From Flavobacteriaceae bacterium (GTDB lineage: Bacteria > Bacteroidota > Bacteroidia > Flavobacteriales > Flavobacteriaceae): a stretch of DNA of 35,135 nt. This document shows positions 1 to 29,155 of the stretch, one piece after another. The translations under genes and the position numbers were made by a program. Within the stretch, counting starts at the first letter, position 1; every line of letters starts with the position of its first letter. A model generated the notes under the pieces. That model did no database searches, was not told the origin of the DNA, and saw only the letters and a program-made list of their open reading frames with translations. The stretch covers positions 15,388 through 50,522 of the forward strand of contig NZUH01000012.1 in the NCBI GenBank assembly GCA_002697255.1. Direction: 5' to 3'.

Positions 1-1521
1 ACGAATATATGGTTTAGATAATATGTTATTTTCAGCATCATTATTATCAACCTCCCCCGTATTTATTTCTGAAAAACCCTCTGTTTTTGAATCAAAATCA
101 TCACCTGACATATTTTCATCGAATAGAGACCATTCAATAGAGTTAAAATCTTCTTCTAGATCATTAATTTTTAAATCCCCATCTTTATAATCGTTAACTT
201 CTATAGGTTCATTTACATCTGTATCTAAAATTTTCGGAATAGATTCTTTACCAAAATCTTCTTCTTTAAAATTAATTGATTTATCTATATCATGTTCATC
301 TTCAAATTCTAAGACATGTACAATTTTTTCATCATTTAAATCGTTTATACCATGATTAATGTCATCATTTTTTTCTTCTGTCTCGTCCAAATCATTCTCT
401 ATTTTTAAACCTTGTAGTGTATTGCTGCTATTATCTGTTTGGTTTAAACTGTCATTAGAATAAGAATTTGAAAATAAATTGTCTTCAGCAAGCTTATGAA
501 TAATTTTTTCTGGTTCTGTATTAGAAATCTCGTTTTGTTGTTCAGGATTAAATCCAGTTGCTATTACTGTTACTGAAATTGAATCTTCAAGCTCTGAATC
601 TTCACCTACCCCCATAATTATATTAGCTCCTCCACCTGCTTGATCTTGAATATATTCATTTATTTCGCCTATCTCGTCAATGGTAATCTCTTGATTTCCT
701 GAAACAATTAATAATAAAACATTTTTTGCTCCAGAAATTTTATTATCATTCAGAAGCGGAGAGTCAAGAGCGTTGGAAATTGCATCATGAGCCCTATTAT
801 TTCCTGAAGATGATCCTGCACCCATAATAGCTGTACCACTATTACTTAAAACAGTTTTCGCATCTTTTAAATCAATATTTTGCGTATAATGATGCGTTAT
901 AACTTCAGCTATACCTTTAGATGCAGTTGATAAAACTTCATCAGCTTTTGAAAAACCTGCCTTAAAGCCTAAATTTCCATAAACTTCTCTCAATTTATTA
1001 TTATTTATTATAATAAGTGAATCTACATGATCCCTTAAATTTTCAATCCCAATTTGAGCCTGTTCATTTCTAATTTTTCCTTCAAAACTAAAAGGAGTAG
1101 TAACTATACCTACGGTTAATATATTCATTTCCCTTGCCATTTTTGCTATTACCGGTGCTGCTCCAGTACCTGTTCCTCCGCCCATGCCAGCAGTAATGAA
1201 TACCATTTTTGTATTTGTACTTAACATGGTCATTATATCTTGAGAACTTTCTAATGCTGCCTTTTCTCCAACTTCAGGATTTGCTCCAGCACCAAGACCC
1301 TCGGTTAAATCTACTCCTAATTGTATTTTATTTGGAACTCCACTATTATTCAGTGCTTGAGCATCGGTATTGCAAATTATAAAATCAACCCCTTTAATTC
1401 CCTGCTTAAACATATGATTTATTGCATTACTTCCACCTCCACCAACTCCAACTACCTTGATTACATTTGATTGATTTTTGGGTAAATCAAAACTTATTCC
1501 AATATCTATATTTTCCTTCAT
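1..1521 (-). CDS. ftsZ: Cell division GTPase FtsZ (partial, C-terminus beyond window)
   Basis: FtsZ is the tubulin-like GTPase that polymerises into the cytoplasmic Z ring. The ATG at 1521 gives [20 protein letters not shown]. It is followed by the glycine-rich nucleotide loop GVGGGGSNA (about residues 25-33) and the tubulin signature GGGTGTG (about residues 111-118). The globular part ends near residue 320 (VIATGF). The next ~185 residues to the window edge are a very acidic Asp/Glu/Asn/Ser-rich linker with no stop codon, so at least 507 codons are present and the conserved C-terminal peptide that binds FtsA lies outside. It starts 24 bp after ftsA and is the last visible gene of the dcw operon. 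Family assignment is certain; only the end is unknown. Confidence 0.97.
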
Positions 1522-1545
1522 ATTATAGTTTGTTTATTTTATTAA

Positions 1546-2877
1546 TTATTCAGCATTATCTAGAAAATCTTTAACCTTTTCTGTAAGCTTATCTAAAAAA
1601 GATTCTCTCTGTATTTTATTTTTAATTTCTTTTGGAGACTCATTATCTTCTAAAACTTCTAAATTATCAGATTCATTATTTTTATCTTCCACTTTTTCTG
1701 TCGAACTAATTTGATCTACTTTATCTAGTCCATCCATTAATAGCCCAACTGCAGTTGCATACAAGGGACTTGTAACTGACTTGTCCGTATCTCCAGCTAA
1801 ATGTTCATTTGGGTAACCCACTCTTGTATCCATCCCGGTAACATATTCTACTAATTGTTTAAGGTGTTTTAATTGACTTCCTCCGCCTGTCAAAACAATA
1901 CCTGCTATTAATTTTTTCTTTTGATCTTCATGACCATAGTTTTTTATCTCCAAGTAAACCTGTTCAATAATCTCAACAGTCCTAGCGTGAATTATTTTTG
2001 ATAAATTTTTTAAAGAAATTTCTTTTGGATCTCTTCCTCTTAAGCCAGGGATAGAAACAATCTCATTTTCTCTGTTTTCTCCAGGCCATGCTGAACCAAA
2101 TTTTACTTTTAGTAGTTCAGCCTGTTTTTCAATTATAGAACACCCTTCTTTTATGTCCTCAGTTATTACATTACCACCAAATGGAATAACAGCAGTATGT
2201 CTAATTATACCGTCTTTAAAAATCGCTAAATCAGTTGTACCGCCACCAATATCTATTAAAGCAACACCAGCTTCTTTTTCTTCATGATTTAAAACGGCAT
2301 TTGATGATGCCAGTGGTTCTAAAGTAATTCCACCAAGATCTAATCCAGCACTCTTTATACATCTGCCAATATTTCTTATAGAGGAAACTTGACCTACTAC
2401 CACATGGAAATTTGCCTCTAATCTTCCACCATACATACCAATTGGCTCCTTAATTTCTGCTTGACCATCAACTTTAAATTCTTGAGGAAGAACATGAATT
2501 ATTTCTTCACCTGGAAGCATTACAAGTTTATGGACCTGATTTACAAGCATCTCTAAATCATTTTGATCAATAACTTGTTCTGAATTATTTCTTGTAATAT
2601 AATCACTGTGCTGTAAGCTTCTTATATGCTGGCCAGCAATTCCAACGGTTACAGCCTCTATTTTACAACCTGAAATATCCTCGGCCTGCTGTACAGCGTG
2701 CTGAATTGATTGAATCGTTTGAGTAATATTATTTACAACGCCTCTGTGAACTCCTAAACTTATGGATTTACCAACACCTAAAATTTTAATTTTATTATAT
2801 TCATTTATTTGACCTATCATGGCAACAATTTTTGTTGTACCTATATCTAAACCAATTGAAATAGTATTTTCTCTCAT
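1546..2877 (-). CDS. ftsA: Cell division protein FtsA
   Basis: FtsA is the actin-like ATPase that tethers FtsZ filaments to the inner membrane and recruits later division proteins. The 443-residue product starts with the phosphate-1 motif LDIGTTK (residues 10-16) and has the phosphate-2 motif IDIGGGTTD (208-216). Between them lies the SHS2-type 1C region typical of FtsA rather than MreB. The C-terminus (about residues 424-443) is an amphipathic helix with alternating Leu/Phe and Lys/Asp/Glu, the expected membrane anchor, preceded by a charged linker of about 40 residues. It sits 5 bp after ftsQ and 24 bp before ftsZ, the standard order. Confidence 0.96.
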   Translation of the reverse strand: MRENTISIGLDIGTTKIVAMIGQINEYNKIKILGVGKSISLGVHRGVVNNITQTIQSIQHAVQQAEDISGCKIEAVTVGIAGQHIRSLQHSDYITRNNSEQVIDQNDLEMLVNQVHKLVMLPGEEIIHVLPQEFKVDGQAEIKEPIGMYGGRLEANFHVVVGQVSSIRNIGRCIKSAGLDLGGITLEPLASSNAVLNHEEKEAGVALIDIGGGTTDLAIFKDGIIRHTAVIPFGGNVITEDIKEGCSIIEKQAELLKVKFGSAWPGENRENEIVSIPGLRGRDPKEISLKNLSKIIHARTVEIIEQVYLEIKNYGHEDQKKKLIAGIVLTGGGSQLKHLKQLVEYVTGMDTRVGYPNEHLAGDTDKSVTSPLYATAVGLLMDGLDKVDQISSTEKVEDKNNESDNLEVLEDNESPKEIKNKIQRESFLDKLTEKVKDFLDNAE

Positions 2878-2882
2878 AAAAT

Positions 2883-3593
2883 TTAATTTTTAATTGCAAC
2901 AATTTGATTTTCAAATTGAAGATTTATTTCTCTATATTTTAATAATTCTTTTTTCTCTTCTAACCTTTTGTAAAATCCTTTAAGGTTTTTAATCTTTTCA
3001 TTTATTCTTATATCTTTTCCAAGAAAAATATTTGTATCAAGTCCTCTAAACTTTACACTCAAATTATCTTGTTTATCAATAATTATCTTCGAAATTCTTT
3101 CATTTAAAAAATTATCATTTTGAGTTATAAATGAAATTTTTGCAAGAAATTTAAGACTTGATTTTTTTTCATATCCTATTATTAATGGTACTTTAACCGA
3201 TTGTAATTTTGACAAATTCATAAAGGTTAAATTTTCACTTAAATAGAACATCGAATCATCAGTAATTATTCTTGCTATAGGTTTATTTTGTTTAATTTCT
3301 ATATTTAAATTTCCCCCCACAGTTTTGGAAATTTGAGACTTTTCTACATAACTAATACTGTCAATGATTTTTTCTAAAGAGAATAAAACCTTAGACCCCT
3401 TAATTTTATTTAAATTAGGATCAATAACTTTTAATATTGAATCGGATGAAATAAAATACTGGGATTTAGGAAGTATTGATATTTTTATATCATCAATATT
3501 TCTGTTATTATTGATTACATTGGACGAGTAGAACAAGCCGATTGAAAATATCAACATAATGATTAATAATATTTTATCCCAATTAAATTTCAT
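2883..3593 (-). CDS. ftsQ: Cell division protein FtsQ
   Basis: FtsQ is a single-pass divisome protein that links cytoplasmic Z-ring proteins to the septal synthase through its periplasmic domains. The 236-residue product has a short cytoplasmic N-terminus, one membrane segment (about residues 8-25), then a POTRA-like region (about 35-105) and a beta domain. Sequence similarity within this family is weak, so the call relies largely on position between murC and ftsA, on topology and on size. The start codon lies 11 bp inside the end of murC, which suggests translational coupling. Nothing else in the dcw layout could fill this slot. Confidence 0.88.
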   Translation of the reverse strand: MKFNWDKILLIIMLIFSIGLFYSSNVINNNRNIDDIKISILPKSQYFISSDSILKVIDPNLNKIKGSKVLFSLEKIIDSISYVEKSQISKTVGGNLNIEIKQNKPIARIITDDSMFYLSENLTFMNLSKLQSVKVPLIIGYEKKSSLKFLAKISFITQNDNFLNERISKIIIDKQDNLSVKFRGLDTNIFLGKDIRINEKIKNLKGFYKRLEEKKELLKYREINLQFENQIVAIKN

Positions 3594-4935
3594 ACTCTAA
3601 TTCATTTTTAATTTTTATTATCTCTTTAGAAATATCACCAGCCCCTAATGTTATATTAACCCTATTTCCGATTCTCTTTAAATTCTTAGATATATCACTT
3701 TTTTTTGATAATATTTTAAACTCCGTATCAATTTTATCTAGTAGTATTTGCGAATTAACCTCTTTGATAGGTTCTTCACGTGCAGGGTAAATATCAAGCA
3801 AAATAACCGAATCAAATTTTGACAATTCATAAGCAAATTCGTTTATTAAATCTCTAGTTCTGCTGTAAAGATGTGGCTGAAAAACAACAGATATTTTTTC
3901 TTCAGGAAAAATATTGCTTAAGGAAATATAAATTTGATTTATCTCCTCAGGATGATGTGCGTAATCGTCAATTAAAATATTTTTTTTAGTATTTAAATGA
4001 AAAGAAAATCTTCTTTTTATACCCTCAAAAGTCTTTAATGCATCAATAATTTCATTTTCAGAAACACCAAGTTCAAGTGCAATCGCAATAGCTGCTGATG
4101 CGTTTATTATATTATGGTTTCCTGTCAAAGATAATTTCACATTAATAACATTATTATTTTTATGTATAAAATTAAATTTACTAGTGTTAGGACCTACCTG
4201 TATATTTTTCACATAAAAATCAGAAGAAATATTTTCTCCATAGGTATAAGAGTCAAAATTTAAATTTTCATGAGTTAGTAAAAAACCATTATCTGAGATG
4301 TTTTTGACAAATTGATTAAACGCACTAATAATATTATCCTCATTCATATATATATCTAAGTGATCAATATCCAAAGAAGTTATACAGGCATAATTTGGGG
4401 ACAACTTTAAGAATGACTTATCATATTCATCAGCTTCAACCAAAATATATTCTTCACCGTTATATATAAAATTAGAATGATAGTTTTCCATAATTCCTCC
4501 AACAAATGCTGTAAATGAAATATTTGCTGTTTTTAATATATGTGCTAAAATTGAGGTTGTTGTAGTTTTACCATGGGTTCCAGCTATAGCAATACATTTA
4601 CTTTTTGCAGAAATTTCTTGAATAATATCAGATCTCTTAAAAATTTCAAAATCTTTATTGATAAAATAGTTTAATAAACTATTCTCGCTTGAAATTGCTG
4701 GGGTATAAATTATCAGAGTACCTTCCTTCTTTAAAAATGAGTATCTATTATGATTATTTTGAAGATTGTAAATTATTTTAGCACCTTTTCTGATAAGTTC
4801 ATCAGTAATTTCAGACTCTTCCCTGTCATATCCATATACTGTCTTATTTTTTTGAATAAAATATTTAGCTAATCCACTCATTCCAATCCCTCCTATTCCG
4901 ATTAATAAAACATTATTTATAAGCTTTAAATTCAT
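3583..4935 (-). CDS. murC: UDP-N-acetylmuramate--L-alanine ligase MurC
   Basis: MurC is the cytoplasmic ATP-dependent ligase that adds L-alanine to UDP-MurNAc, the first amino acid of the stem peptide. The 450-residue product has an N-terminal Rossmann-type UDP-binding motif GIGGIGMSGLA (about residues 13-23) and the Mur ligase P-loop GTHGKTTTT (119-127, Lys123). The GTHGKT form, rather than GTNGKT or GSNGKT, is typical of MurC and Mpl. Later conserved pieces include EADEYDKSF and DDYAHHPEEI, the latter characteristic of MurC. It overlaps murG by 4 bp and ftsQ by 11 bp, so the three are probably co-translated. Confidence 0.96.
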   Translation of the reverse strand: MNLKLINNVLLIGIGGIGMSGLAKYFIQKNKTVYGYDREESEITDELIRKGAKIIYNLQNNHNRYSFLKKEGTLIIYTPAISSENSLLNYFINKDFEIFKRSDIIQEISAKSKCIAIAGTHGKTTTTSILAHILKTANISFTAFVGGIMENYHSNFIYNGEEYILVEADEYDKSFLKLSPNYACITSLDIDHLDIYMNEDNIISAFNQFVKNISDNGFLLTHENLNFDSYTYGENISSDFYVKNIQVGPNTSKFNFIHKNNNVINVKLSLTGNHNIINASAAIAIALELGVSENEIIDALKTFEGIKRRFSFHLNTKKNILIDDYAHHPEEINQIYISLSNIFPEEKISVVFQPHLYSRTRDLINEFAYELSKFDSVILLDIYPAREEPIKEVNSQILLDKIDTEFKILSKKSDISKNLKRIGNRVNITLGAGDISKEIIKIKNELEYEI

Positions 4936-6026
4936 AAAACAATTAATTTTTTAATTTCCTTAACAATGTCCTTTGAAGCATCGACGTAAGCTAATTTTTT
5001 TATATTTTTTGATAATTTGTTTCTAAGTTCAGCAGATGAATTAAGGATACTGATTTGTTTTTTTAATTCAGTTTTCAAATCTTTTTCTTCAATTAAAATT
5101 GCCGCGTCATTTTCTACAACTGATTTTGCATTTTTGAATTGATGATTTTCAGCTACATTCGGTGAGGGAATAAAAATTACAGGTTTACCAACAACCGATA
5201 ATTCAGAAACAGAGCTAGCGCCTGCTCTAGAAATTATAAAGTCAGAGGCAGAAAAAGCTAATTTAATATCTTCTATATAACTATATAATTTTATATTTTT
5301 TGAATCAAAAGCATCTTTATACTTATCAAAATATAACTTTCCACATTGCCATATAACCTGAATATTTAAATACTCTAAATAATCTATAATCAAAAAAATA
5401 TTTTTATTTATTTCCTTTGAACCCAAGCTACCTCCAACAACAAGCAATGTTTTCTTGTTTATATCTAAATTATAGTAATCAATGGCATGGTCAAATGAAT
5501 CTGAACTAAAATAAATATCAGATCTAATTGGGTTTCCAGTAATTACAATTTTTTTCTCGGGAAAAAATTTATCTAAATTTTTATAAGCAACACAAATAGT
5601 ATTTACTTTTTTTGACAAAATTTTATTTGTGATTCCTGGATATGAATTTTGTTCCTGAATTAAAGTAGGTATTCTTAAAATATTGGCAACAAATAAAACA
5701 GGCCCACTAGCATACCCACCAGTACCAACAACTATTTCAGGTCTAAATTTTTTAATTATTACGATGGATTGAAAAACACTAACAAGTAACTTTACAGGAA
5801 CAATAATATTTTTAAAAAAATTAGTTCTGTTAAATCCAGAAATCCATAGTCCCAAAATATTAAAACCATATTTAGGAACAATATTCATTTCCATTTTATT
5901 CCTCGCTCCAACAAATAATATTTCATAATTTTTATCAGTAGAAATTAATTCTTTTGCAATAGAGATTGCAGGATAAATATGTCCTCCTGTACCTCCACCT
6001 GAAAATATTATTTTATTTCTTTTCAT
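4932..6026 (-). CDS. murG: UDP-GlcNAc:lipid I GlcNAc transferase MurG
   Basis: MurG is the peripheral inner-membrane glycosyltransferase (GT28) that converts lipid I to lipid II by transferring GlcNAc. The 364-residue product has the N-terminal signature SGGGTGGHIYPA (residues 9-20) that binds the acceptor diphosphate. The second conserved glycine-rich stretch, VVGGSLGSKEIN, lies near residue 195. The UDP-GlcNAc site motif, SRAGASSVSEL, followed by PSPNVAENHQ, lies near residues 265-295. It is directly adjacent to ftsW (no gap) and overlaps murC by 4 bp. Confidence 0.96.
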   Translation of the reverse strand: MKRNKIIFSGGGTGGHIYPAISIAKELISTDKNYEILFVGARNKMEMNIVPKYGFNILGLWISGFNRTNFFKNIIVPVKLLVSVFQSIVIIKKFRPEIVVGTGGYASGPVLFVANILRIPTLIQEQNSYPGITNKILSKKVNTICVAYKNLDKFFPEKKIVITGNPIRSDIYFSSDSFDHAIDYYNLDINKKTLLVVGGSLGSKEINKNIFLIIDYLEYLNIQVIWQCGKLYFDKYKDAFDSKNIKLYSYIEDIKLAFSASDFIISRAGASSVSELSVVGKPVIFIPSPNVAENHQFKNAKSVVENDAAILIEEKDLKTELKKQISILNSSAELRNKLSKNIKKLAYVDASKDIVKEIKKLIVL

Positions 6027-7220
6027 TTATATTGTTTCCTTTAATATTTCGAGCGGATTATCTTTATCAGAAGTTTCTGAATTTTCTACAGATCCGCATT
6101 TAACGCTTTGTATTATACCAATGGCTACACATGTCATCCATATTGAAGTACCTCCACTGCTAATAAGTGGAAGAGGCTGTCCTGTTATTGGAAATAATTC
6201 TACTGATACACCTATATTAATCAATGCTTGGAATACGATAGGTATACCAAGTCCAATCACCAGTAAAGAGCCAAAAATAGTTTTGGATTTATTAGAAATA
6301 ATTATAATTCTAAATAATAGTAATAGATAAACCAGTAGAATAGATATACCTCCAATTAAACCAAATTCTTCAACTATTATTGCAAAAATAAAGTCTGAGG
6401 AAGATTGAGGAAGGAAATTCTTTTGAACACTTTTTCCAGGCCCTAAGCCTCTTATACCTCCAGTTGCAATGGCAATTTTAGCTTTTTCTATTTGATAATT
6501 ATCTTTGTTTTGATCTTTATTTACAAAATTTTCAATTCTGTTTTTCCATGTATCTACTCTGTTCGGAAAAACCTCAGGATAGGCCTTGGCTGTTAAAATA
6601 AATAATGTTAATATAACTAAGGCTGAGGAAATTAATAAAAACAAATATTTTTTAGGATACCCCCCAATATAGCATAATAAAATAATCATAAAAAATAATA
6701 TAGCAGTTGTTGAAAAATTTGCTGGTAAAATCAATATTAGTATCAACAAAGCAGGTATCCAAAGTGGAATTATTGACTGAGAAAATCTTATTTCTAAATC
6801 CTTAATTTTAGCAAGATATCTAGACACATAAATCATTAAAATGACTCCAGCTAGAGTTGAAGGCTGAAAAGTAAAGCCAACTATAGGGATTTTAATCCAG
6901 CGACTTGTATTTGTTAACGAATTTGATATTTCAGGTTGAAATAGTGTATATATAAGTAATACAATAACTACAGGCAGCATAAGAATAGAAATACCTCTAA
7001 AATATCTGTATGGAATTTTTTGTAAAAAAAACATAAAAGTGAATCCAAGAGATAAATGAATAAGGTGTTTAAAAAGAAAATTTATTGTATTTCCACCACC
7101 TGAAATATATGCCAAATTACTAGCAGCACTATAAACCGGTAAAAAAGAAAATCCAGCAAGCAATAATAATACTGCCCACAAGGTTTTATCACCACGAATA
7201 TTTTCTAAAAATTGATTCAT
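6027..7220 (-). CDS. ftsW: Septal peptidoglycan polymerase FtsW (SEDS family)
   Basis: FtsW is the polytopic SEDS glycosyltransferase that polymerises lipid II at the septum together with its class B PBP, here FtsI. The 397-residue product is dominated by hydrophobic helices and carries the conserved extracellular stretch GLGPGKSVQKNFLP followed by SSSDFIFAIIVEEFG. Asp276 in SSSDF corresponds to the essential aspartate of the family. The C-terminal part has GQPLPLISSGGTS, also diagnostic. RodA is the main alternative, but location between murD and murG in a dcw operon favours FtsW. Start and murD stop share one base (TAATG arrangement). Confidence 0.94.
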   Translation of the reverse strand: MNQFLENIRGDKTLWAVLLLLAGFSFLPVYSAASNLAYISGGGNTINFLFKHLIHLSLGFTFMFFLQKIPYRYFRGISILMLPVVIVLLIYTLFQPEISNSLTNTSRWIKIPIVGFTFQPSTLAGVILMIYVSRYLAKIKDLEIRFSQSIIPLWIPALLILILILPANFSTTAILFFMIILLCYIGGYPKKYLFLLISSALVILTLFILTAKAYPEVFPNRVDTWKNRIENFVNKDQNKDNYQIEKAKIAIATGGIRGLGPGKSVQKNFLPQSSSDFIFAIIVEEFGLIGGISILLVYLLLLFRIIIISNKSKTIFGSLLVIGLGIPIVFQALINIGVSVELFPITGQPLPLISSGGTSIWMTCVAIGIIQSVKCGSVENSETSDKDNPLEILKETI

Positions 7221-8548
7221 TATAATTTTCTAACAGCTGATTTAAATTGTCTTCCCCTATCTTCAAAATCTTCAAATAAATCAAAACTTGCACAGGCTGG
7301 TGACAAAAGAACAGTATCTCCAGCACTTGAGATTTTATAAGCTTCATCAACGGCATCTTTCATTGATTTAGTTTCAATAATTAACTCTACATTATTTTCA
7401 AAATGATGAATGATTTTCATGTTATTTAAACCAAGGCATATGATTGCTTTAACTTTATTTTCAACAAGTTTTATTAATTCAGAATAATCATTTCCCTTAT
7501 CAATTCCTCCTACTATCCATATGGTTGGAGTTTCCATTGACTCCAGCGCATAATAAGCAGCATTAACATTAGTAGCTTTAGAGTCGTTAATATAACTTAC
7601 CTTATTAATAGTTAAAACGTTTTCTAGTCTATGCTCAACACCCTGGAAATGCTCTAAGCTTTTCCTGATTGTTTCTTTTCGAATCTTTAATAAATTAGCA
7701 ACTGTAGCCGCAGCCATAGCATTTTTAATATTGTGATTCCCCTTAATTAAAAAATTGTTTGTAGGCATATTAATTTTATTTTTTTCAATTGTTATGTTTA
7801 TTTTATTATCTAAATAATAAGCTCCTTGGTTAACTATATTATTTGTTGAAAAAGGAATTAATTTAGAATTAATTTTATTTGATTTTATATAGTTGTTAAT
7901 TACTTCACAATCAGAATTGTATATCAAATAGTCATTGAAATCCTGATTTTTTACGATTTTAAATTTTGAATTTATGTAAGCTTTATAATTTTCGTATCTA
8001 TCTAAATGATCTGGTGTAATCCCTGTCAATACAGCTATATGAGGTTTAAAATTTTCAATACCATCTAGCTGGAAACTACTTAATTCTATGACACTGTATT
8101 TATAAAATTTATCACACACCTTAGAAAAACTATTACCAATATTACCAGAAAGAGAACAGCTAATATTAGCATCTGAAATCAACTTATTAATTAAAGTTGA
8201 TGTAGTAGTTTTACCGTTACTTCCTGTAACTCCAATTATAATAGAAGAAGAAAAACTGTAAGCAAATTCTATTTCTGAAATAACTTTAATCCCTATAGAT
8301 TTGAAATAATTAATAATCTTTGAATCTTCTGGAATTCCAGGACTCTTAATAACTAAATCTGTTTTTTTTGCCATTGCAAAATCGTGTGAATTTTCTTCAT
8401 ATTGAATATTTAATTTTTCTAATAATCTCTTAGCTTCATGATTTATTTTTCCATAATCAGAAACAAAAACCTCAAAGAAATTTTTTTTAGCTAGTTCTGC
8501 ACTACCCAAACCACTTTCCCCTGCGCCAAGAATTATTACTTTTTTCAA
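7220..8548 (-). CDS. murD: UDP-MurNAc-L-Ala--D-Glu ligase MurD
   Basis: MurD adds D-glutamate to UDP-MurNAc-L-Ala in the cytoplasm. The 442-residue product begins with a dinucleotide-type motif (GAGESGLG, residues 8-15) for the UDP moiety. It has the ATP P-loop GVTGSNGKTTT (Lys113), the pieces ITPDHLDRY and KGNHNIKNAMAA, and the third-domain signature YINDSKATN that is diagnostic for MurD. It abuts mraY with no gap and shares one base with ftsW. Length and domain order are ordinary for the family. Confidence 0.96.
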   Translation of the reverse strand: MKKVIILGAGESGLGSAELAKKNFFEVFVSDYGKINHEAKRLLEKLNIQYEENSHDFAMAKKTDLVIKSPGIPEDSKIINYFKSIGIKVISEIEFAYSFSSSIIIGVTGSNGKTTTSTLINKLISDANISCSLSGNIGNSFSKVCDKFYKYSVIELSSFQLDGIENFKPHIAVLTGITPDHLDRYENYKAYINSKFKIVKNQDFNDYLIYNSDCEVINNYIKSNKINSKLIPFSTNNIVNQGAYYLDNKINITIEKNKINMPTNNFLIKGNHNIKNAMAAATVANLLKIRKETIRKSLEHFQGVEHRLENVLTINKVSYINDSKATNVNAAYYALESMETPTIWIVGGIDKGNDYSELIKLVENKVKAIICLGLNNMKIIHHFENNVELIIETKSMKDAVDEAYKISSAGDTVLLSPACASFDLFEDFEDRGRQFKSAVRKL

Positions 8549-9760
8549 TTATCTTATTTTAAGAGTTATTATTGACAGAATAGCTAGTATTATCCCAACT
8601 ATCCAAAATCTTGTTACTATTTTACTCTCGTGATATCCTTTTTTCTGAAAATGATGATGTAAAGGTGACATAAGAAAAACTCTACGACCTTTTCCGAATT
8701 TTTTTCTGGTATACTTGAAATAAAAAACCTGTATCATTACAGATAAATTTTCTATCAAAAAAATTCCACATATTAACGGGATTAACCACTCTTTTCTGAC
8801 AGCAATAGAAATTACTGCAATTATCCCCCCTATTGTTAAGCTTCCAGTATCACCCATGAAAACTTGAGCCGGATATGTATTATACCATAGAAATCCTACT
8901 AATGCACCTGCAAAGGCAGCGATAAATATTGTTATTTCACCTATTCTAGGTATATACATAATATTTAAATATTCAGAAAAAATTATATTACCTGAAACCC
9001 ATGAAAATACCCCTAATGTTAGGACAATTATGGCTGATGAACCTGCAGCTAATCCATCTAATCCATCTGTAAGATTGGCTCCATTAGACACGGCGGAAAT
9101 TATTAGTACAACAAAAAATATAAAAACAATCCAGGTATATGGTTCCAAATTTGGACTTATCCAAGTTATTAAATCTGAGTAATCAAACACATTATCTTTT
9201 ACAAATGGAATTGTTGTCTCTGTAGATTTATATTCCTCAAATACATTTATTGGGTTTATGTTCGTTTTAGGTCCATTTTGATCCTTAACGGTTACCTCTG
9301 GATGAAAGAATAGGGTAGCTCCAACAAATAATCCTAAACCTAATTGACCAATAATTTTATATTTCCCTCTTAATCCCTTTTTATTATTTTTGAATAATTT
9401 TATATAATCATCAATAAAACCAATTATTCCCATCCATAATAAAGTTATTATCAATAATATTATATATATATTGTTAAGTTTAGCAAATAACAAAACTGGA
9501 ACAATTGTAGCTAATAAAATAATCAGGCCACCCATTGTGGGTGTTCCTTGTTTTTCATTCTGACCCTCTAGACCTAAATCTCTAATGGACTCACCGATTT
9601 GTTTTTTACTTAAAAAATCGATTATTTTTTTTCCGAAAATAGTTGAGATTAATAAAGATAAAATTACCGCTGCAGCTGCCCTAAATGAAATATAAGTGAA
9701 TAAAGATGCACCAGGAATTTGATATTGATTTTCTAAATATTCAAAAAGATAATATAGCAT
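8549..9760 (-). CDS. mraY: Phospho-MurNAc-pentapeptide transferase MraY
   Basis: MraY is the multi-span inner-membrane enzyme that transfers phospho-MurNAc-pentapeptide to undecaprenyl phosphate, giving lipid I. The 403-residue product has the TPTMGG motif (73-78), the catalytic aspartate pair FIDDYIK (Asp117-Asp118), [10 protein letters not shown] (Asp232, Asp235) and the histidine box HHHFQKKG (His368-370). About ten hydrophobic segments are visible. A loop of roughly 55 residues after about residue 150, rich in Asn/Thr/Pro, makes it longer than E. coli MraY; such an insert is usual in Bacteroidota. It lies 4 bp after murE. Confidence 0.96.
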
Positions 9761-9764
9761 ATTT

Positions 9765-11222
9765 TTATTTTTTTTGATTTAATAAATTTTTAACAATATC
9801 AAAATCATCAAATTGTATTTTGATTCCTTTTATCTCTTGATATGATTCATGACCTTTTCCAGCAATCAGAATTATATCATTTGATTCTGCTAAATAACAA
9901 GCTGTTTTAATTGCTTCCTCTCTGTTAGTAATTGAAATAAATTTTTTTTCATTTATGACTTTCACTCCATTTATCATCTGCTGAATAATAGATTCCGGAT
10001 CTTCGTTTCTAGGGTTATCACTAGTGAAAATTACCTTTGAGCTTAATGAAGTAGCAATATCTCCCATAATAGGTCTCTTAGATTTATCTCTATTTCCCCC
10101 ACATCCAACTACAGTAATCAGATTATTACTTAAAGATTTTATTTCGTTAATGGAAAGCAATATGCTTTCAAGCGCATCGGGAGTATGGGCATAATCAATT
10201 ATAGCGTTAATTTCATTTTTTTTAAATAATTGAAATCTTCCGTTAACAGCTTTTAATTTACTTAAGCCTTTTAAAATATTTTCTTTTGGAAGACCTAAAA
10301 TTACAGCTGTTGAATATACAGCTAGAATGTTAAAAACATTAAATCGTCCTATTAGTCTAGACCAAACATCAGAATTATCAATTTTTAATAACATTCCATC
10401 AAATGATGATTCCAAAACTTTTGCTTTAAAGTCAGAAACTGAATTAAGAGAATAGGTGAATTTGTCAGCATTTGTATTTTGCAACATAAACATGCCGTTT
10501 TTATCGTCATTATTTGTGAGTGCAAAAGATGAATTAGTTAAATTATCAAAAAATTGCTTTTTAGTGTCTCTGTAATTTTTAAAGTTTTTATGATAATCTA
10601 AGTGGTCATGGGTTAAATTAGTAAATATACCCCCTTTAAAATTCAAACCTTTTATTCTACTTTGATCTATCCCATGTGAACTAACCTCCATAAAACAATA
10701 TTTAACACCATTTAACACCATTTTATTCAGATAATTATTTATCGCAAGTGAATCAGGAGTTGTTTGATTAGATTTAATAATATCATGATCTATCATAATT
10801 TTAATAGTCGATATCAATCCTGATTTAATACCTAAATTCTTATAGAGCTCATACAATAAGGTAGATACAGTAGTTTTACCATTAGTTCCGGTTATACCAA
10901 TAAGATTTATTTTGGATGATGGATTGTCATAGTAATTTGAAGATATAATAGAAAGTGCATCTCTTGATGAATTAACTTTAATGTAAACAATGTCATTCAA
11001 TATTTCAGTGGGTAAATTTTCACAAATAATACAGATTGAACCATTTTTAATAGCTTTATTTATGAAATTATGTCCGTCTACATTAACCCCATTGACAGCT
11101 ACATACATATCATCGTTTACTATTAGTTTAGAATTAAACTCAACTTTGTTAATTTTGATTGATGTATCACCAATTATATCTATAATATCAACCTTATATA
11201 ATATTTCTCTAATCAGCTTCAA
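9765..11222 (-). CDS. murE: UDP-MurNAc-tripeptide synthetase MurE (meso-DAP adding)
   Basis: MurE adds the third stem-peptide residue to UDP-MurNAc-L-Ala-D-Glu. The 485-residue product carries the P-loop [10 protein letters not shown] (Lys116) and the substrate motif DNPR (402-405). DNPR marks enzymes that use meso-diaminopimelate rather than lysine, so the cell wall is predicted to be of the DAP type. Other family pieces are [10 protein letters not shown] and [12 protein letters not shown]. It overlaps the end of ftsI by 4 bp, and mraY follows after 4 bp. The DAP specificity is inferred from the motif. Confidence 0.96.
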
Positions 11223-13210
11223 ATCAATTTTATTTTGATAATTTCACCCTTTTTTATACTTGATCCAGCTTTGTTAATTTGCTGAATATTATTGCCTGAA
11301 CCCTCAACTATAACTTTAAATCCCGCATTTTCTAAAAACGGAATTATATCGATCAAATCATATTTTGTTAAATCAGGCATAATCATATTTTCTAAAACTG
11401 CAAGATCATCCTTCAATATTTTATTAGAAACTGAGCTAAATTTTAGATCATAATTTTCAACACTTGGAATATTTGTATATATTTTTTGTGCAATTTCTTT
11501 AAAAACTGGAGCAGCAACTATATTTCCATAGTAACCTCTACTTTTATTTGGTTTGTATATTACTACAATACACGAGTACATTGGATTTTCAACAGGAAAA
11601 AATCCTGCAAATGATGAAATATATAAATCATCTGATTTCCAATACTCAGTTTTACTTGTTCCTGTTTTTCCCGCCATAGAAAAGTCTTCTGTATATATAT
11701 TATGAGCTGTACCATGTTTCTTTTTTATTACGTTTTTCATTAATTCTTTAACAATACTTATTGTCTCTATGCTACAAATACTATCAGAAATAATTTCGGT
11801 CTCAAATTTTTCAATTTCTCTATCTAAATTCTTTACAGATTTAATAAACCTTGGCTTAACCATTACTCCATTATTAGCTATTGCATTATAAAATGTCAAT
11901 GACTGGAGAGCAGTCAATGAAATACCATATCCAAAAGCCATCCAAGGCAAAACCAAACTATTCCAATTTTTTTTATCAGAGGGGTGAATGAATTTAGGTA
12001 TGCCTACTCCAATAAATGGTAAGTCCAGTTTTTGATTAATTTTCATTTTAAAAAGTCCGTCGATGAAGATTTCAGGATTATCCTTATAATTTTCATTTAT
12101 TATTTGAGCAAATGCAGTATTAGAAGATACTTCAAATGCTTTTGCAACAGAAATTTTACCGTATCCGCCAATCTTTGAGTCAGTAACCTTTTTTCTATGA
12201 AAAGTGATGGAACCATTTTTTGTGTCAATTAAGTCGGAGGTGTCAACAACCTTATCTTCTAGAGCTCTAATTAAAGCCATTAATTTAAATGTTGATCCAG
12301 GCTCATATAATTCGCCAACAGCATAGTTTAATTTTTCGTAATATTTACCCTCAGAAGTTCTGCCCAAATTTGAAATTGCTTTAATTTCACCGGTATTTGT
12401 TTCCATTACTACTACACTTCCATGTTCTGCCTCGTATTTTTCTAACTGTTTAAGTAAAGCGTGATGAGCAAAATCTTGAATTTCAATATTCAAAGTTGTG
12501 TGTAGATCATAACCATCTACAGGCTCAATTTCATTATAATCAAAAACAGGTTTCCACTGACCTAATCCTATTTTTTGAGAAAATACACTTCCGTTTTTGC
12601 CTTTTAAATATTTAGGCCCAAAATAACCATCTAAACCTGGTCTCATAGAATTACCAAAATCATCATACCTCTCGTAACCAACGGTTCTTTGGGCAATTCC
12701 TCCAATTGGATAATCTCTTTTAGTAAATGTTTTAGCAATAAATCCACCTTTATTTGCACCCAAATCAAATAAAGGAAAACCATTAAATTTTTTATAATCT
12801 AGATAACTCAAATCTCTAGCAATTAACAAATACCTGTTTTTATCTTTTCGAGCTTTTCTTAATTTGTTAGAGTAAAATTCTGAGGAGTTATTAAAGTACA
12901 TCGATAATTCATCAGCTAAAAGATCTATATATTTTTCAAAATTCTGATTCGATGGAGCCACAGCATCAAATCTTATATCATATTTAGGCACAGAGCTAGC
13001 TAATAATTTTTTAGAATCTGAATATATATTGCCTCTATTAGCAGGTATTTCAATATTTTTAAATTCTCTTTTTTCAGAAATATTTATATAATAATCCCCG
13101 TTAAAAAATTGTATCTGAATTAACCTAAAAATAATAGCAAAAACGATAATAATTAGTAAAAAACTAATCATATAAATTCTTGTTGTTATTTTCTTTTTAG
13201 TTACCGGCAT
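11219..13210 (-). CDS. ftsI: Septal transpeptidase FtsI (class B PBP with C-terminal PASTA domain)
   Basis: FtsI (PBP3) cross-links septal peptidoglycan in partnership with FtsW. The 663-residue product has one membrane segment (about residues 13-33), a class B dimerisation/pedestal region, and a penicillin-binding domain. That domain contains the nucleophile motif STFK (Ser306, Lys309), an SSNT (SxN) motif and KTGT (515-518). The last ~60 residues form one PASTA domain (MPDLTKYDLIDIIPFLENAG and on), common in Bacteroidota FtsI but absent from E. coli. It overlaps the ftsL-like gene by 14 bp and murE by 4 bp. Confidence 0.95.
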   Translation of the reverse strand: MPVTKKKITTRIYMISFLLIIIVFAIIFRLIQIQFFNGDYYINISEKREFKNIEIPANRGNIYSDSKKLLASSVPKYDIRFDAVAPSNQNFEKYIDLLADELSMYFNNSSEFYSNKLRKARKDKNRYLLIARDLSYLDYKKFNGFPLFDLGANKGGFIAKTFTKRDYPIGGIAQRTVGYERYDDFGNSMRPGLDGYFGPKYLKGKNGSVFSQKIGLGQWKPVFDYNEIEPVDGYDLHTTLNIEIQDFAHHALLKQLEKYEAEHGSVVVMETNTGEIKAISNLGRTSEGKYYEKLNYAVGELYEPGSTFKLMALIRALEDKVVDTSDLIDTKNGSITFHRKKVTDSKIGGYGKISVAKAFEVSSNTAFAQIINENYKDNPEIFIDGLFKMKINQKLDLPFIGVGIPKFIHPSDKKNWNSLVLPWMAFGYGISLTALQSLTFYNAIANNGVMVKPRFIKSVKNLDREIEKFETEIISDSICSIETISIVKELMKNVIKKKHGTAHNIYTEDFSMAGKTGTSKTEYWKSDDLYISSFAGFFPVENPMYSCIVVIYKPNKSRGYYGNIVAAPVFKEIAQKIYTNIPSVENYDLKFSSVSNKILKDDLAVLENMIMPDLTKYDLIDIIPFLENAGFKVIVEGSGNNIQQINKAGSSIKKGEIIKIKLI

Positions 13211-13514
13211 TAATAATAATTTTTATTGGAGGCTTCTTTGACACTTTAATTCCCTTATTAAATAATTTACTCTTGACATTTGATTCCATTTTTAATGTCA
13301 TCAATAAAGTACGAGTAGCAACAAATTCTGACCTCATTAATTTTATTTCTTCATTTAATTTGGCAATTTCATAAACTTTCTTATCAACAGAGTGAGAAGA
13401 TGAAATCATAATAATGGATAGTATTAAAAAAAGAAAAATATAAAACCAATTAGAGGTGGACTTCTCGTCAACTAAAAAAGAACCCCTAATTATATTTAAA
13501 ATCTTATCTTTCAT
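13197..13514 (-). CDS. FtsL-like small divisome protein
   Basis: This 105-residue protein has a charged cytoplasmic N-terminus with Lys/Arg, one strong membrane segment (about residues 23-41), and then a heptad-like helical stretch rich in Leu/Met/Glu/Lys. That is the architecture of FtsL, the bitopic protein that forms a complex with FtsQ and FtsB and activates FtsWI. Primary sequence is poorly conserved, so the call depends on topology and position between rsmH and ftsI, where Bacteroidota keep an FtsL-like gene. The gap to rsmH is 3 bp, and the end overlaps ftsI by 14 bp. Confidence 0.8.
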   Translation of the reverse strand: MKDKILNIIRGSFLVDEKSTSNWFYIFLFLILSIIMISSSHSVDKKVYEIAKLNEEIKLMRSEFVATRTLLMTLKMESNVKSKLFNKGIKVSKKPPIKIIINAGN

Positions 13515-13517
13515 TAT

Positions 13518-14423
13518 CTAATTTTTTTGAGCAATTCTTAGTTTTGCACTTCGTGATCGTTTATTAAACTTTAATTCTTCATTACATGGACTAATTAAGG
13601 ATCCCACTTTTTTGAAAGGAACAGAAAAGTTTCCGTAAAAATCTTTTTCAATTTCTTTTTCAAAACTGCCGTTTTTAATAAATCTTTTAACAAGCCTATC
13701 TTCAACTGAATGATATGATATTATACATAACCTTCCACCTGGTAATAATAATTCACTTGATTGCTTCAGTAGAGATTTTAATACTCCAATCTCATTATTC
13801 ACCTCAATTCTTATAGCCTGATATATTCTGGAAAGACTTTTATTAAAATAACGTTCAGGAAATAGAGGCTTTAAAATAGAATTAAACTGAAAAGTTGTTT
13901 TTATTTCTTTTTCTATTCTTTTATTACAAATTTGTTTAGAGATCTTTTTTGAGTTTTTTAGATCCCCAAAATCATATAATATATTTGATAATTTTTCTTT
14001 AGAATATTTATTAATTACGCGAAATGCATCTAATGAACTTTCTTTATCCATTCTCATATCTAAAGCTGAATCATATCTGTAGGAAAAACCTCTTTTTGGT
14101 TTATTAATTTGATAAGATGAAATACCTAAATCTGCAAGTATTCCATTTACTTGAGTAAATCCAATATTTTTTAAAAATTTTTTCATGTATGTAAAATTTT
14201 CATTTATAAAATGAAATCTATTATCTTTAAAAACATTCATAAAAGTATCAGGATCTTGATCAAATGAAATTAATTTTCCATTTTCTGAAAGATGTCCTAA
14301 AATCTCTTTGCTATGACCTCCACCTCCAAATGTCACATCTACATAAATCCCTTTATCATTTATATTTAAACCCATTACAGATTCTTTGAGTAGTACTGGG
14401 TCATGATAACTATTCATCATCAC
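13518..14423 (-). CDS. rsmH: 16S rRNA (cytosine-1402-N4)-methyltransferase RsmH
   Basis: RsmH (MraW) methylates N4 of C1402 in the decoding centre of 16S rRNA using S-adenosylmethionine. The 301-residue product shows the N-terminal motif YHDPVLLKES, the SAM-binding glycine run DVTFGGGGHSKE (about residues 29-40), ILADLGISSYQ, the RGFSYR motif, and the C-terminal ISYHSVEDRLVK and KRSRSAKLRIA signatures. Three ATG codons open the frame (MMMNSYHDP), so the exact start is uncertain by two codons. The first overlaps the end of mraZ by 14 bp, as is common for this pair. Confidence 0.96.
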   Translation of the reverse strand: MMMNSYHDPVLLKESVMGLNINDKGIYVDVTFGGGGHSKEILGHLSENGKLISFDQDPDTFMNVFKDNRFHFINENFTYMKKFLKNIGFTQVNGILADLGISSYQINKPKRGFSYRYDSALDMRMDKESSLDAFRVINKYSKEKLSNILYDFGDLKNSKKISKQICNKRIEKEIKTTFQFNSILKPLFPERYFNKSLSRIYQAIRIEVNNEIGVLKSLLKQSSELLLPGGRLCIISYHSVEDRLVKRFIKNGSFEKEIEKDFYGNFSVPFKKVGSLISPCNEELKFNKRSRSAKLRIAQKN

Positions 14424-14865
14424 TACCCATAACTTCTTCTGCTAACTGAGCAAAATCATCTCTAGAATCAACTATTGCACTTTCATAACTTTGTTTATCC
14501 CATATTTCAATTATATTTACTGATGATGACAATACAATATCTCTTTTGATATTTGAAAACTCAATTAAATCTTTGGGTATTAATAATCTTCCGTTATTAT
14601 CAAGCTCAATAAATTTTACTCCAGCCGTAAATCTTCTAATAAAATCATTATTTTTCTTCTTAAATCTGTTAAGAGAATTCACCCTTGAAATTAAATCCTC
14701 CCATTGAGAAATAGGATAAAGCTCTAAACAGCTCTGAAATACAGCTCTTTTTAATACAAAACCTTTTTTAATAACAGATGCCAATTGTTTCTTAAATGCT
14801 GAAGGAATAAGAACTCTGCCTTTAACATCAACTTTACACTCGTATGTTCCAATTAGATAATTCAA
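14410..14865 (-). CDS. mraZ: Transcriptional regulator MraZ (start reassigned to TTG)
   Basis: MraZ is a DNA-binding protein of the AbrB-like fold that controls its own dcw operon. Two copies of the family motif are seen: DVKGRVLIP near the N-terminus and DNNGRLLIP in the second half. The longest frame opens at a GTG at 14913, but this adds a 16-residue hydrophobic Leu/Asn/Ile tail and puts the start codon inside the repeat operator. The TTG at 14865 gives MNYLIGTYECKVDVKGR, matching the usual N-terminus and the usual length (151 residues here). I therefore prefer TTG 14865. There is no Shine-Dalgarno to decide it. The end overlaps rsmH by 14 bp. Confidence 0.9.
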   Translation of the reverse strand: MNYLIGTYECKVDVKGRVLIPSAFKKQLASVIKKGFVLKRAVFQSCLELYPISQWEDLISRVNSLNRFKKKNNDFIRRFTAGVKFIELDNNGRLLIPKDLIEFSNIKRDIVLSSSVNIIEIWDKQSYESAIVDSRDDFAQLAEEVMGSDDE

Positions 14866-14905
14866 GTTTAATAACAGTTTAGATATAATCAAATTTAATA
14901 AAAAA

Positions 14906-14935
14906 TTTACCACATTTTACCACATTTTACCACAT
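14906..14935 (-). promoter_or_regulatory. Probable MraZ operator: three perfect 10-bp direct repeats
   Basis: Three head-to-tail perfect copies of TTTACCACAT on the plus strand (14906-14915, 14916-14925, 14926-14935) read ATGTGGTAAA on the mraZ strand. MraZ proteins are known to bind short direct repeats at 10-bp spacing just upstream of mraZ (TGGG-type in E. coli, GTG-type in mollicutes). Here the repeated GTGG core at 10-bp period fits that pattern. The block ends 40 bp before the preferred mraZ start. Role as operator is inferred from position and period. Confidence 0.8.
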
Positions 14936-15066
14936 TGTTAATAAAAATTAAATAAAACTGCTATTTAATGCATCAAAAGAGTATTATTTAATAATAAAAC
15001 ATTGTTAATCAAGTGGTTAGTTTGTTAATTCAATTAATTAACATTACCTGTTGATTAATTGTTAAT
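14935..15066. repeat. Four direct copies of TTGTTAAT in the mraZ/hydrolase divergent spacer
   Basis: The octamer TTGTTAAT occurs on the plus strand at 14935-14942, 15002-15009, 15022-15029 and 15059-15066. The third copy is also the left arm of an inverted repeat: TGTTAAT at 15023-15029 and ATTAACA at 15037-15043, separated by 7 bp. The 190-bp spacer between mraZ and the hydrolase gene (14938-15127) contains no open frame worth calling. The copies may be binding sites for an unidentified protein or just AT-rich drift; no known consensus was recognised. Confidence 0.55.
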
Positions 15067-16531: not shown

Positions 16532-17884
16532 CTATTTAATAATATTAGAAATAGTTTTTAAACCCGTTGAAAATTCTTTTGTAATAACTGCTTTGTCATA
16601 CAAGCTTCCTAGAGTTGTGTAGGCACTATAAATCAATTTGTCATTTTCAACACTAATCACTTGGAAAAACTGAGTTTGTTCCCCCAATTTATCAACTTGA
16701 TAGCCATCGGCTTGATAATTTTCAATTTGACCTTTGTCAGATGCGTATTGTTTTGGACCACTTACAGAGGTAACATATAAGGTTTTAAAATTTCCAGACT
16801 GATCGATATTCGGTGATTTAACAGGTATATGTCCCCTAGCGTATGTATGATCATGACCATTAAGCACGAGATCAACTCCATACTTATCAAATAATGGTTT
16901 CCATACTTTCCTCGCATATTCAAAATCTCTACCCTCAGCTGGAGAAAAAACAGAATGATGACTAGTAACTATTTTCCATTTTGCATCTGTATTACTTAAC
17001 TTTTCTTTAATATATTCGGTTTGCTTCTCTAGATGACCTGTAGAATTAAGTACTACTATAAGTATGTCTTGGTACTCAACCGTATAAACAGTTTCATGAA
17101 GTCTACTATCCAAAATCTCTTCTTCTGGTAAGTTGAATTGAGGTCTCCACTGGATAGACAATCTTCTGGGTAATGACCCTTCATATCCGTCAAACCTTTG
17201 AAACTCATGATTACCCACTACGGGAATTGCTGTCCATTGGCTATGAATAAATCCTCCTGCTTTAAACCATTGAGCCCACTCATTGTCTTTATGAGCAGTA
17301 TCTACTAAATCTCCGGCATGAATAACAAATGATGCATTTGGAGCAGTTTGATAAGCCATCCTAATAACCCTTGACCAGTGATTTAAAATATCATTTTGTG
17401 CATCTCCAAAATAAACAAATTGTGTTGGACTGTAATAATTATTGGCTGTTTTGAACTGAATCCACTCCGACCAATTTTCAGCAGAACCAACTCTGTAAGC
17501 ATATAATGTGCTTGGCTTTAAATTTTCAAATATTACACTATGATAATTTACAATCAAAGATTTATTTGATTTATATATTCCTAAATCAAATTCTTCTGTT
17601 AATGCAATATAAGAAATAGCTTCATTAGAAAATTTAGAATTAAGACCAGCAATAGCTATTTGAGCTTCACCTTTTTCTACAGAGGAATCTGTTCTCCATG
17701 TCACAGCTCTTGTTGTGGATGGATCTCCGTTAAAAGTTAAAATAATTCTGTCTGGATCTTTACTTGGAATTTCCCAATGATGTAAACCATCATGTTTCTG
17801 GGCATGAGGGTGTGAATGTTTCTGAGCATTGAGGTTAAATAAAAAAACTACTGAAAGTACAGGAACGTAAAGGAATTTAATCAT
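16532..17884 (-). CDS. Secreted purple acid phosphatase-like metallophosphatase
   Basis: The 450-residue product has a signal peptide (hydrophobic residues about 4-20, cleavage likely after Ala20 in NLNAQ). Next is a short His-rich segment (six His in about 18 residues), a fibronectin-like N-terminal domain of purple acid phosphatases (RAVTWRTDSS), and a calcineurin-like dinuclear-metal domain. Metal-ligand motifs are all present: GDAQ (Asp161), GDLVD (Asp192), GNHE (Asn225-His226), SHHS, and GHDH (His344, His346). It should hydrolyse phosphomonoesters or diesters in the periplasm or outside. No T9SS C-terminal domain or lipobox is visible. Its 3' end faces engB at 10 bp. Confidence 0.88.
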   Translation of the reverse strand: MIKFLYVPVLSVVFLFNLNAQKHSHPHAQKHDGLHHWEIPSKDPDRIILTFNGDPSTTRAVTWRTDSSVEKGEAQIAIAGLNSKFSNEAISYIALTEEFDLGIYKSNKSLIVNYHSVIFENLKPSTLYAYRVGSAENWSEWIQFKTANNYYSPTQFVYFGDAQNDILNHWSRVIRMAYQTAPNASFVIHAGDLVDTAHKDNEWAQWFKAGGFIHSQWTAIPVVGNHEFQRFDGYEGSLPRRLSIQWRPQFNLPEEEILDSRLHETVYTVEYQDILIVVLNSTGHLEKQTEYIKEKLSNTDAKWKIVTSHHSVFSPAEGRDFEYARKVWKPLFDKYGVDLVLNGHDHTYARGHIPVKSPNIDQSGNFKTLYVTSVSGPKQYASDKGQIENYQADGYQVDKLGEQTQFFQVISVENDKLIYSAYTTLGSLYDKAVITKEFSTGLKTISNIIK

Positions 17885-25129: not shown

Positions 25130-25149
25130 AAGTTTGCAAATATAATATT

Positions 25150-28983: not shown

Positions 28984-29066
28984 AAAAACGGTTTAGAACA
29001 ATTATTATTATTTAGAAAAATAAATTAATAAAAATAATATAATATTAAGATTAAGTTGACGTTTAA

Positions 29067-29080
29067 TTGATATAAATCAA
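29067..29080. promoter_or_regulatory. Perfect FNR/ANR-type palindrome in the porU/gldJ spacer
   Basis: TTGAT-ATAA-ATCAA is an exact match to the FNR-type consensus TTGATnnnnATCAA; the symmetry extends one base on each side (29066-29081). It sits about 55 bp upstream of the predicted gldJ start of transcription, a distance used by Crp/Fnr activators, and in the spacer shared with porU. Function is inferred; no Crp/Fnr gene lies in the window. Confidence 0.45.
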
Positions 29081-29093
29081 TACGGTATAATAA

Positions 29094-29123
29094 TTGTATC
29101 ATTAGATTTAATTATTATATTTG
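29094..29123 (+). promoter_or_regulatory. gldJ promoter, Bacteroidota -33/-7 type
   Basis: TTG (29094-29096), a 19-bp spacer and TATATTTG (29116-29123) match the Bacteroidota sigma consensus exactly. The predicted transcript start near 29128-29130 leaves a leader of about 26 bases before the ATG at 29156. The rest of the 172-bp divergent spacer (28984-29155) is AT-rich; no convincing porU promoter was found in it. Confidence 0.78.
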
Positions 29124-29155
29124 AAATCTCAAGTAATGAGCATATAAAATTTAGT

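Follow-up and report, generated by a model that had tools for sequence, protein, structure and literature searches.

The operator of the Escherichia coli mraZ gene, reportedly described by Eraso and colleagues in 2014, is said to consist of TGGGN repeats. In Mollicutes, the MraZ site is AAAGTG[T/G], a result of Fisunov et al. 2016 as cited in PMC8475190. In Burkholderia cenocepacia, the mraZ site consists of 7-nt repeats with a 3-nt spacer in the MraZ-bound fragment, and a GTG motif is reportedly common to distant bacteria (PMC7761207). A literature search, conducted mainly outside subscription papers, yielded no binding or expression data for MraZ of Bacteroidota, including Flavobacterium.

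In this work, we compare the region before mraZ in a flavobacterial genome with these systems. The window, by which we mean the whole 35,135-nucleotide stretch of DNA that was analysed, belongs to a 1.5-Mb draft genome. Its nearest named relatives are isolates of the AG series, filed as uncultured Bacteroidetes and presumably marine single cells, and a Flavobacteriaceae MAG. What we regard as new here, no description having been found in the literature search, is the promoter geometry of Bacteroidia and a box that abuts the operator and recurs at replication genes.

The mraZ gene and the dcw cluster

The genes relevant to this work are located as follows.

14410..14865, minus strand: mraZ, TTG start, 151 aa, identified by PF02381, TIGR00242 and similarity to E. 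coli MraZ
1..14423, minus strand: the remaining dcw cluster, downstream of mraZ (rsmH, ftsL, ftsI, murE, mraY, murD, ftsW, murG, murC, an ORF at the ftsQ position, ftsA and ftsZ), identified mainly by profile matches and cluster order

Judged by its sequence, the window gene is a true MraZ. Its product scores 88.3 bits against PF02381 (cut-off 23), in two Pfam stretches, and 102.1 bits against TIGR00242 (cut-off 98.35). It matches E. coli MraZ with E=5e-20 and 26% identity over 130 positions, and solved MraZ chains with E values of 4e-16 to 6.5e-15. The genus alignment shows no variation in DxKGR and DxxGR, the motifs of the two half-domains, and both line up with their counterparts in E. coli MraZ. 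The most plausible start is the TTG at 14865, because same-genus relatives share the frame from there; in one of them (L009) the open frame starts one codon earlier than the window TTG.

The count of 13 dcw genes from mraZ to ftsZ, given in an earlier sequence-only reading of this DNA, is correct according to Pfam and NCBIfam matches and cluster order. Individual mur names were assigned from cluster order and Mur-ligase matches, ftsZ, which runs off the window edge, was named by eye, and the 236-aa ORF at the ftsQ place (2883-3593) had no Pfam or NCBIfam match. The divergent neighbour of mraZ is an alpha/beta hydrolase at 15128. Elsewhere in the window, type IX secretion genes occupy 23876-30799, encoding PorV (23876-25129), a C25-peptidase protein (25150-28983), which we take to be of the PorU type, and an FGE-sulfatase-domain protein (29156-30799), which we assume is possibly GldJ.

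Tandem repeats before mraZ and their conservation

14906..14935, minus strand: MraZ-type tandem repeats, three copies of ATGTGGTAAA on the mraZ coding strand, identified by sequence and conservation in relatives

Three exact copies of TTTACCACAT lie at 14906-14915, 14916-14925 and 14926-14935, with zero mismatches and zero gaps, and a gap of 40 bp separates them from the mraZ TTG start. The sequence-only reading had reported three perfect 10-bp repeats 40 bp ahead of mraZ, and its positions, exactness and gap were all borne out. The 35-kb window contains no other exact copy of TTTACCACAT; matches with at most one mismatch number 7 against 4.07 expected from shuffles, so a lone near-copy is unremarkable and it is the exact tandem that matters. 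The general marks of a MraZ operator are present, namely at least three direct repeats with a GTG core and a 10-bp period, directly 5' of mraZ, in an orientation kept in relatives, next to a gene whose MraZ product has both half-domains. All three window repeats have a GTGGT core, without the GGG of the TGGGN operator of the E. coli type.

Across 191 mraZ upstream regions, GTGG occurs at least twice at a 10-bp period in 164, against a mean of 0.25 in 20 rounds of dinucleotide shuffles, and at least three times in 129, against 0 in such shuffles. For at least two copies, the periods of 7-9 and 11-13 bp gave 0-5 regions each and the opposite strand gave 1.

MraZ was present in 19/21 genus, 117/120 family, 119/147 order, 139/149 class and 135/148 phylum genomes, the order, class and phylum draws overlapping one another. 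Relatives do carry the repeats before mraZ, as had been anticipated. GTGG recurs three times at exactly 10 bp in all 18 readable genus loci (17 genomes, G002 being counted twice), in 47/51 family loci, several of which belong to one genus (g120), and in 19/27 order loci, 44/75 class loci (G380 counted twice) and 3/21 loci from other classes of the phylum. At least two GTGs at a 10-bp period were found in 18/18, 50/51, 27/27, 69/75 and 18/21 loci of the same five tiers. Of the loci from the order, class and phylum draws, 80 were chosen from the matches non-randomly and mostly as one per family, and the loci given by searches are best matches. Among the named records (the best 80 loci, mostly of Flavobacteriaceae and partly genomes already in the genus tier), the GTGG triple is present in 79/79 loci with enough upstream DNA, L306 being too short. 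The upstream counts exclude L120, L122 and L133, whose start was not located, the duplicates L036, L037 and L137, and L015 and L024, whose upstream DNA is too short. In two genus loci (L012 and L017), A replaces T before GTG in all three units. In the family, the repeats average 1.58 bits per column and the two flanks 0.22 and 0.40.

The exact pattern GTGGN6GTGGN6GTGG is nearly confined to mraZ. Of the 120 family genomes, 103 contain it, all of them among the 117 with mraZ, and 103 of its 115 matches lie 38-103 bp before the MraZ match; of the 12 elsewhere, 7 belong to one genome's array. The pattern is absent from all 3 family genomes that gave no MraZ match, but as one of these is 66% complete and another 8% contaminated, the joint loss of mraZ and the triple rests mainly on the complete genome G043. 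The exact triple is missing from 14 of the 117 family genomes with mraZ, of which at least three (L047, L049, L069) keep a degenerate one. At this resolution, MraZ appears from its sites to serve its own operon only. A larger MraZ regulon was searched for in the window genome, where the pattern gave two overlapping exact matches at mraZ and two three-mismatch matches elsewhere; since the reversed-pattern control also gave two, there is no evidence for such a regulon.

The repeat core

The commonest unit in the named records is GTGGTAAA (147 of 237 units). The base after GTGG is T in 100% of the units in the genus, 92% in the family, 42% in the order, 52% in the class and 12% in the other classes; units without this T mostly have G, and in the order tier also A. 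GTGG[T/G]A is common to the class Bacteroidia, and E. coli K-12 has GTGGG units at the same 10-bp period and in the same repeat layout before mraZ. The proposal that this lineage has a core variant of its own did not hold, because T and G follow GTGG in other Bacteroidia orders and GTGGG occurs in E. coli; a lineage-private core is ruled out by these units. Going by the unit sequences, the range of cores is a shared one, with this lineage at its T end.

Promoter geometry

The sequence-only reading overlooked two neighbours of the repeats, a -7 box and a TTWTYAACA box, both conserved equally with them. TAnnTTTG is the consensus of the Bacteroidota -7 promoter element.

14890..14897, minus strand: TAAATTTG, a TAnnTTTG match that begins 16 bp past the GTG of the last repeat, identified by match to the consensus

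The distance from the last GTG to the start of this element is 16 bp in all 18 genus loci and 15 or 16 bp in all 50 family loci, and the element stands at the corresponding place in 79/79 named-record loci. It was found in 18/27 order and 14/69 class loci, and the relaxed form TAnnTTT[GA] in 48/69 class loci, 38 of them at 14-16 bp. Counted from the -7 element, the GTGs of the three window repeats are 16, 26 and 36 bp upstream, and the family profile has no TTTG at the -33 place; by these positions, the Bacteroidia operator is taken to occupy the place of the -33 element.

In other classes of the phylum, TAnnTTTG was found in 0/18 loci. A scan without shuffle control revealed a TTGACN-type promoter in 10/21 loci of these classes, whose -10 ends 0-11 bp upstream of the first GTG (L197, one of the ten, has a single GTG); the remaining 11 had no promoter found or showed another distance. 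In E. coli, the repeats begin 7 bp after a -10-like box. The operator thus seems to lie upstream of the promoter core in Bacteroidia and downstream of it in E. coli and part of the other classes, apparently on opposite sides, because it stands before the -7 element in the former and after the -10 in E. coli and the 10 other-class loci.

A second conserved box

14936..14944, minus strand: box TTATTAACA, which abuts the first repeat and starts 11 bp before the first GTG, identified by sequence and relatives

Measured back from the first GTG, TTWTYAACA begins at a distance of 11 bp in 18/18 loci of the genus and of 11 or 12 bp in 47/50 loci of the family. Named records have it in 77/79 loci. In the order it was found in 22/27 loci, at 10-11 bp in 16 of them, and in the class in 37/69, at 11-12 bp in 29; the other classes of the phylum gave 0/18 at mraZ. 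Its column conservation in the family is 1.53 bits, close to that of the repeats; in the class tier it is 0.51 bits against 1.21 for the repeats, partly because the spacing of the box varies.

The DnaA box consensus is TTATNCACA, and TTATCCACA is a canonical DnaA box. The window box TTATTAACA departs from the DnaA-box pattern TTWTNCACA. Of 130 exact TTWTNMACA boxes at mraZ, 123 have A and 7 have C at position 6, the choice of A or C being imposed by the search pattern and few other variants having been listed. The C6 form is what we take to be the canonical DnaA box. The distance between TTWTYAACA and the repeats varies by 1 bp, which suggests that the box is read separately from MraZ. Probably a second protein binds there.

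The box at replication genes and candidate origins

The same motif recurs in pairs before genes of DNA replication.

L220-L222, L224-L227, L230, L231, L233, L255, L256, L258, L260: hup upstream loci with a TTATYAACA pair
L228, L232, L254, L259, L288: dnaB upstream loci with box pairs 19-21 bp apart
L376, about 2062-2091 and 1656-1684, window genome: TTWTYAACA-type pairs near the ribonucleotide reductase small-chain and dCMP deaminase genes

All 14 complete Flavobacteriaceae genomes have a TTATYAACA pair, 20-21 bp apart, 131-147 bp before the start of hup (HU), and 4 of the 14 have such a pair 19-21 bp apart before dnaB; HU and DnaB were identified by Pfam in one locus each and otherwise by sequence motif. 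A pair search with at most one mismatch was positive in at least 110 of 120 family genomes and the reversed-pattern control in 33, so many mismatch-containing matches are due to chance. Of 9 pair loci additionally taken up from this search, 8 lie before hup and 1 before dnaB. The window genome has no exact N11 pair and two 1-mismatch pairs, one near the dCMP deaminase/ribonucleotide reductase locus and one between tgt and transketolase. It also carries two TTTTTAACA boxes about 100 bp before the ribonucleotide reductase small-chain gene with an ATP cone, an arrangement that is similar in G020 of the same genus. In G097, five TTWTYAACA boxes lie in the nrdBA promoter region (L442, about 5973-6237; G097 1235972-1236236).

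The origin comparison covered two genomes, G087 and G097. According to a Prevotella paper, the oriC of Bacteroidetes is commonly distant from dnaA (PMC4755523). The densest motif cluster in 520 contiguous kb of G087 lies in the 700-bp rnr-rpiB spacer, and the local GC-skew minimum is 10 kb away; in 620 kb of G097 it lies in the nrdBA promoter, with the local minimum 7 kb away. Among 300 letter permutations of the motif, an equally dense cluster arose in 8 (G087) and 1 (G097), and a top cluster at most 11 kb from the minimum in 6 and 8, the 11-kb radius having been set after the distances were known; both conditions were combined in none. G097 also has the homologous rnr-rpiB spacer, with a single exact match to the motif and many near ones, about 200 kb away from the minimum. 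The motif shows no genome-wide enrichment (35 against 54 expected in 200 kb of G087; 14 against 22 in G097). For clustering of the motif at the replication origin, these data are suggestive only.

L406, about 16591-17301 (G087 1236590-1237300): AT-rich rnr-rpiB spacer with many DnaA-like boxes, a candidate replication origin

At dnaA itself, the promoters carry a C6 box, TTGTTCACA or TTATTCACA, beside ATTTG in 10/10 readable genomes. This suggests, on sequence grounds, autoregulation through a DnaA-type box that adjoins a -7-like element. The stretch TTGTTCACATATTTG (in 9 loci) or TTATTCACAAATTTG (in 1) stands 109-131 bp before the dnaA match (L234-L239, L241, L243, L245, L246).

Three other candidates were set aside. 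Canonical TTATNCACA pairs as a shared element were found in 2 of 14 complete genomes, as three matches with no common place noticed. The dnaA neighbourhood as the origin was rejected, no TTWTYAACA cluster being found within 1.5 kb before dnaA in 10 loci, a scan from which four other genomes with dnaA at the contig start were left out. Three successive TTATYAACA copies in G034 are part of a coding repeat.

Mechanism and alternative explanations

The tandem repeats are very probably the operator of MraZ, a known kind of switch. This reading draws on the repeats themselves, their period and orientation, their fixed place relative to mraZ and the -7 box, their near-uniqueness and their co-occurrence with mraZ. 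The earlier proposal of a MraZ operator with a 10-bp period and a GTG core is supported by comparison (18/18 genus loci, 103/117 family genomes with mraZ), and support of the same, comparative kind favors the probable autoregulation of the dcw cluster suggested with it. The perfect tandem identity in the window genome might point to a functionless product of chance slippage, but the class-wide conservation of the repeats, on one strand and at one period only, and the shuffle, period and strand controls rule this origin out and make it hardly conceivable.

As an MraZ operator, the repeats would be contacted by a ring-shaped MraZ at one GTGG per helical turn and on one DNA face, as in known MraZ operators, and MraZ would act back on the promoter of its own gene and, through it, on the dcw cluster. 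Bound MraZ may repress by covering the -33 or upstream part of the promoter and excluding RNA polymerase, because the GTGs stand 16 to 36 bp ahead of the -7 element, at the expected -33 place. Operator position agrees with repression, activation or both. That MraZ activates instead of repressing in Bacteroidia, its operator replacing the -33 box upstream of the -7 element, appears improbable. Its upstream place before TAnnTTTG, opposite to that after the sigma-70-like -10 of E. coli and 10/21 other-class loci, and the family profile without TTTG at the -33 place agree with activation; however, an operator over -33 is equally compatible with repression, and PMC8475190 gives an increase of 2-3 log2 for the remaining dcw genes in an mraZ mutant of Mycoplasma genitalium.

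The neighboring box invites two further explanations. It may be the site of another regulator of hup, dnaB, nrd and dcw, or an upstream promoter element, and not a DnaA site, a reading to which we give a little less than an even chance. The prevalence of A6 (123/130 boxes) in a family with canonical boxes at dnaA and the 1-bp shift in box-repeat spacing argue for it, but no candidate protein emerged and the natural C6 variants are DnaA boxes. Alternatively, the locus could be a composite dcw switch in which MraZ would bind the repeats and DnaA the adjacent TTWTYAACA box, tying division-gene expression to replication; we consider this doubtful. In its favor are the fixed position of the box and its conservation equal to that of the repeats, the 7/130 canonical C6 boxes, the recurrence of the motif before hup (14/14), dnaB (4/14), nrdBA (G097) and the ribonucleotide reductase small-chain gene (window genome and a same-genus genome), the dense boxes of the G087 rnr-rpiB spacer near the skew minimum, and the DnaA motif RDHATV, found in 14/14 genomes against RDHTTV in E. 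coli. However, the A6 motif is not simply the family DnaA box, because the dnaA promoters carry C6 boxes. The densest G097 cluster is a gene promoter, with the rnr-rpiB spacer far from the minimum, the A/T-rich motif is unenriched genome-wide, and origins were looked at in two genomes, the window genome having no exact N11 pair.

In a broader form, TTWTYAACA would be occupied by a DnaA-like protein and GTGG by MraZ, and the two might compete or cooperate before the dcw promoter; hup, dnaB and ribonucleotide reductase would be under the control of the same box. We think this tentative idea somewhat likelier to fail than to hold. If true, Flavobacteriaceae and related Bacteroidia would couple division of the cell to its replication through a single DNA element; no description of a cell-cycle regulon via TTWTYAACA (dcw, hup, dnaB, ribonucleotide reductase) was found in the literature search. 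The second conserved box offers a testable lead on the timing of division-gene expression in Bacteroidota.

Comparison with known systems

The TTWTYAACA box shares the TTWTN.ACA frame with the DnaA box TTATNCACA, which 7 of the 130 boxes at mraZ match exactly, but differs from it by A at position 6 in the other 123. The Mollicutes site (PMC8475190) resembles the window in its GTG-core direct repeats in the mraZ promoter and differs in its core and promoter type. The B. cenocepacia site (PMC7761207) has the same 10-bp period; in contrast to the window, it comprises four repeats, downstream of the -10 and over the transcription start. The E. coli operator, as read from its sequence, likewise has three direct repeats with a 10-bp period and a GTGG core before mraZ, whereas its units are GTGGG instead of GTGGT and follow a -10-like box, those of the window preceding the -7 box; no TTWTYAACA box was seen in the E. 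coli mraZ upstream stretch inspected. These comparisons would extend the MraZ operator to the whole class Bacteroidia, with a different promoter type.
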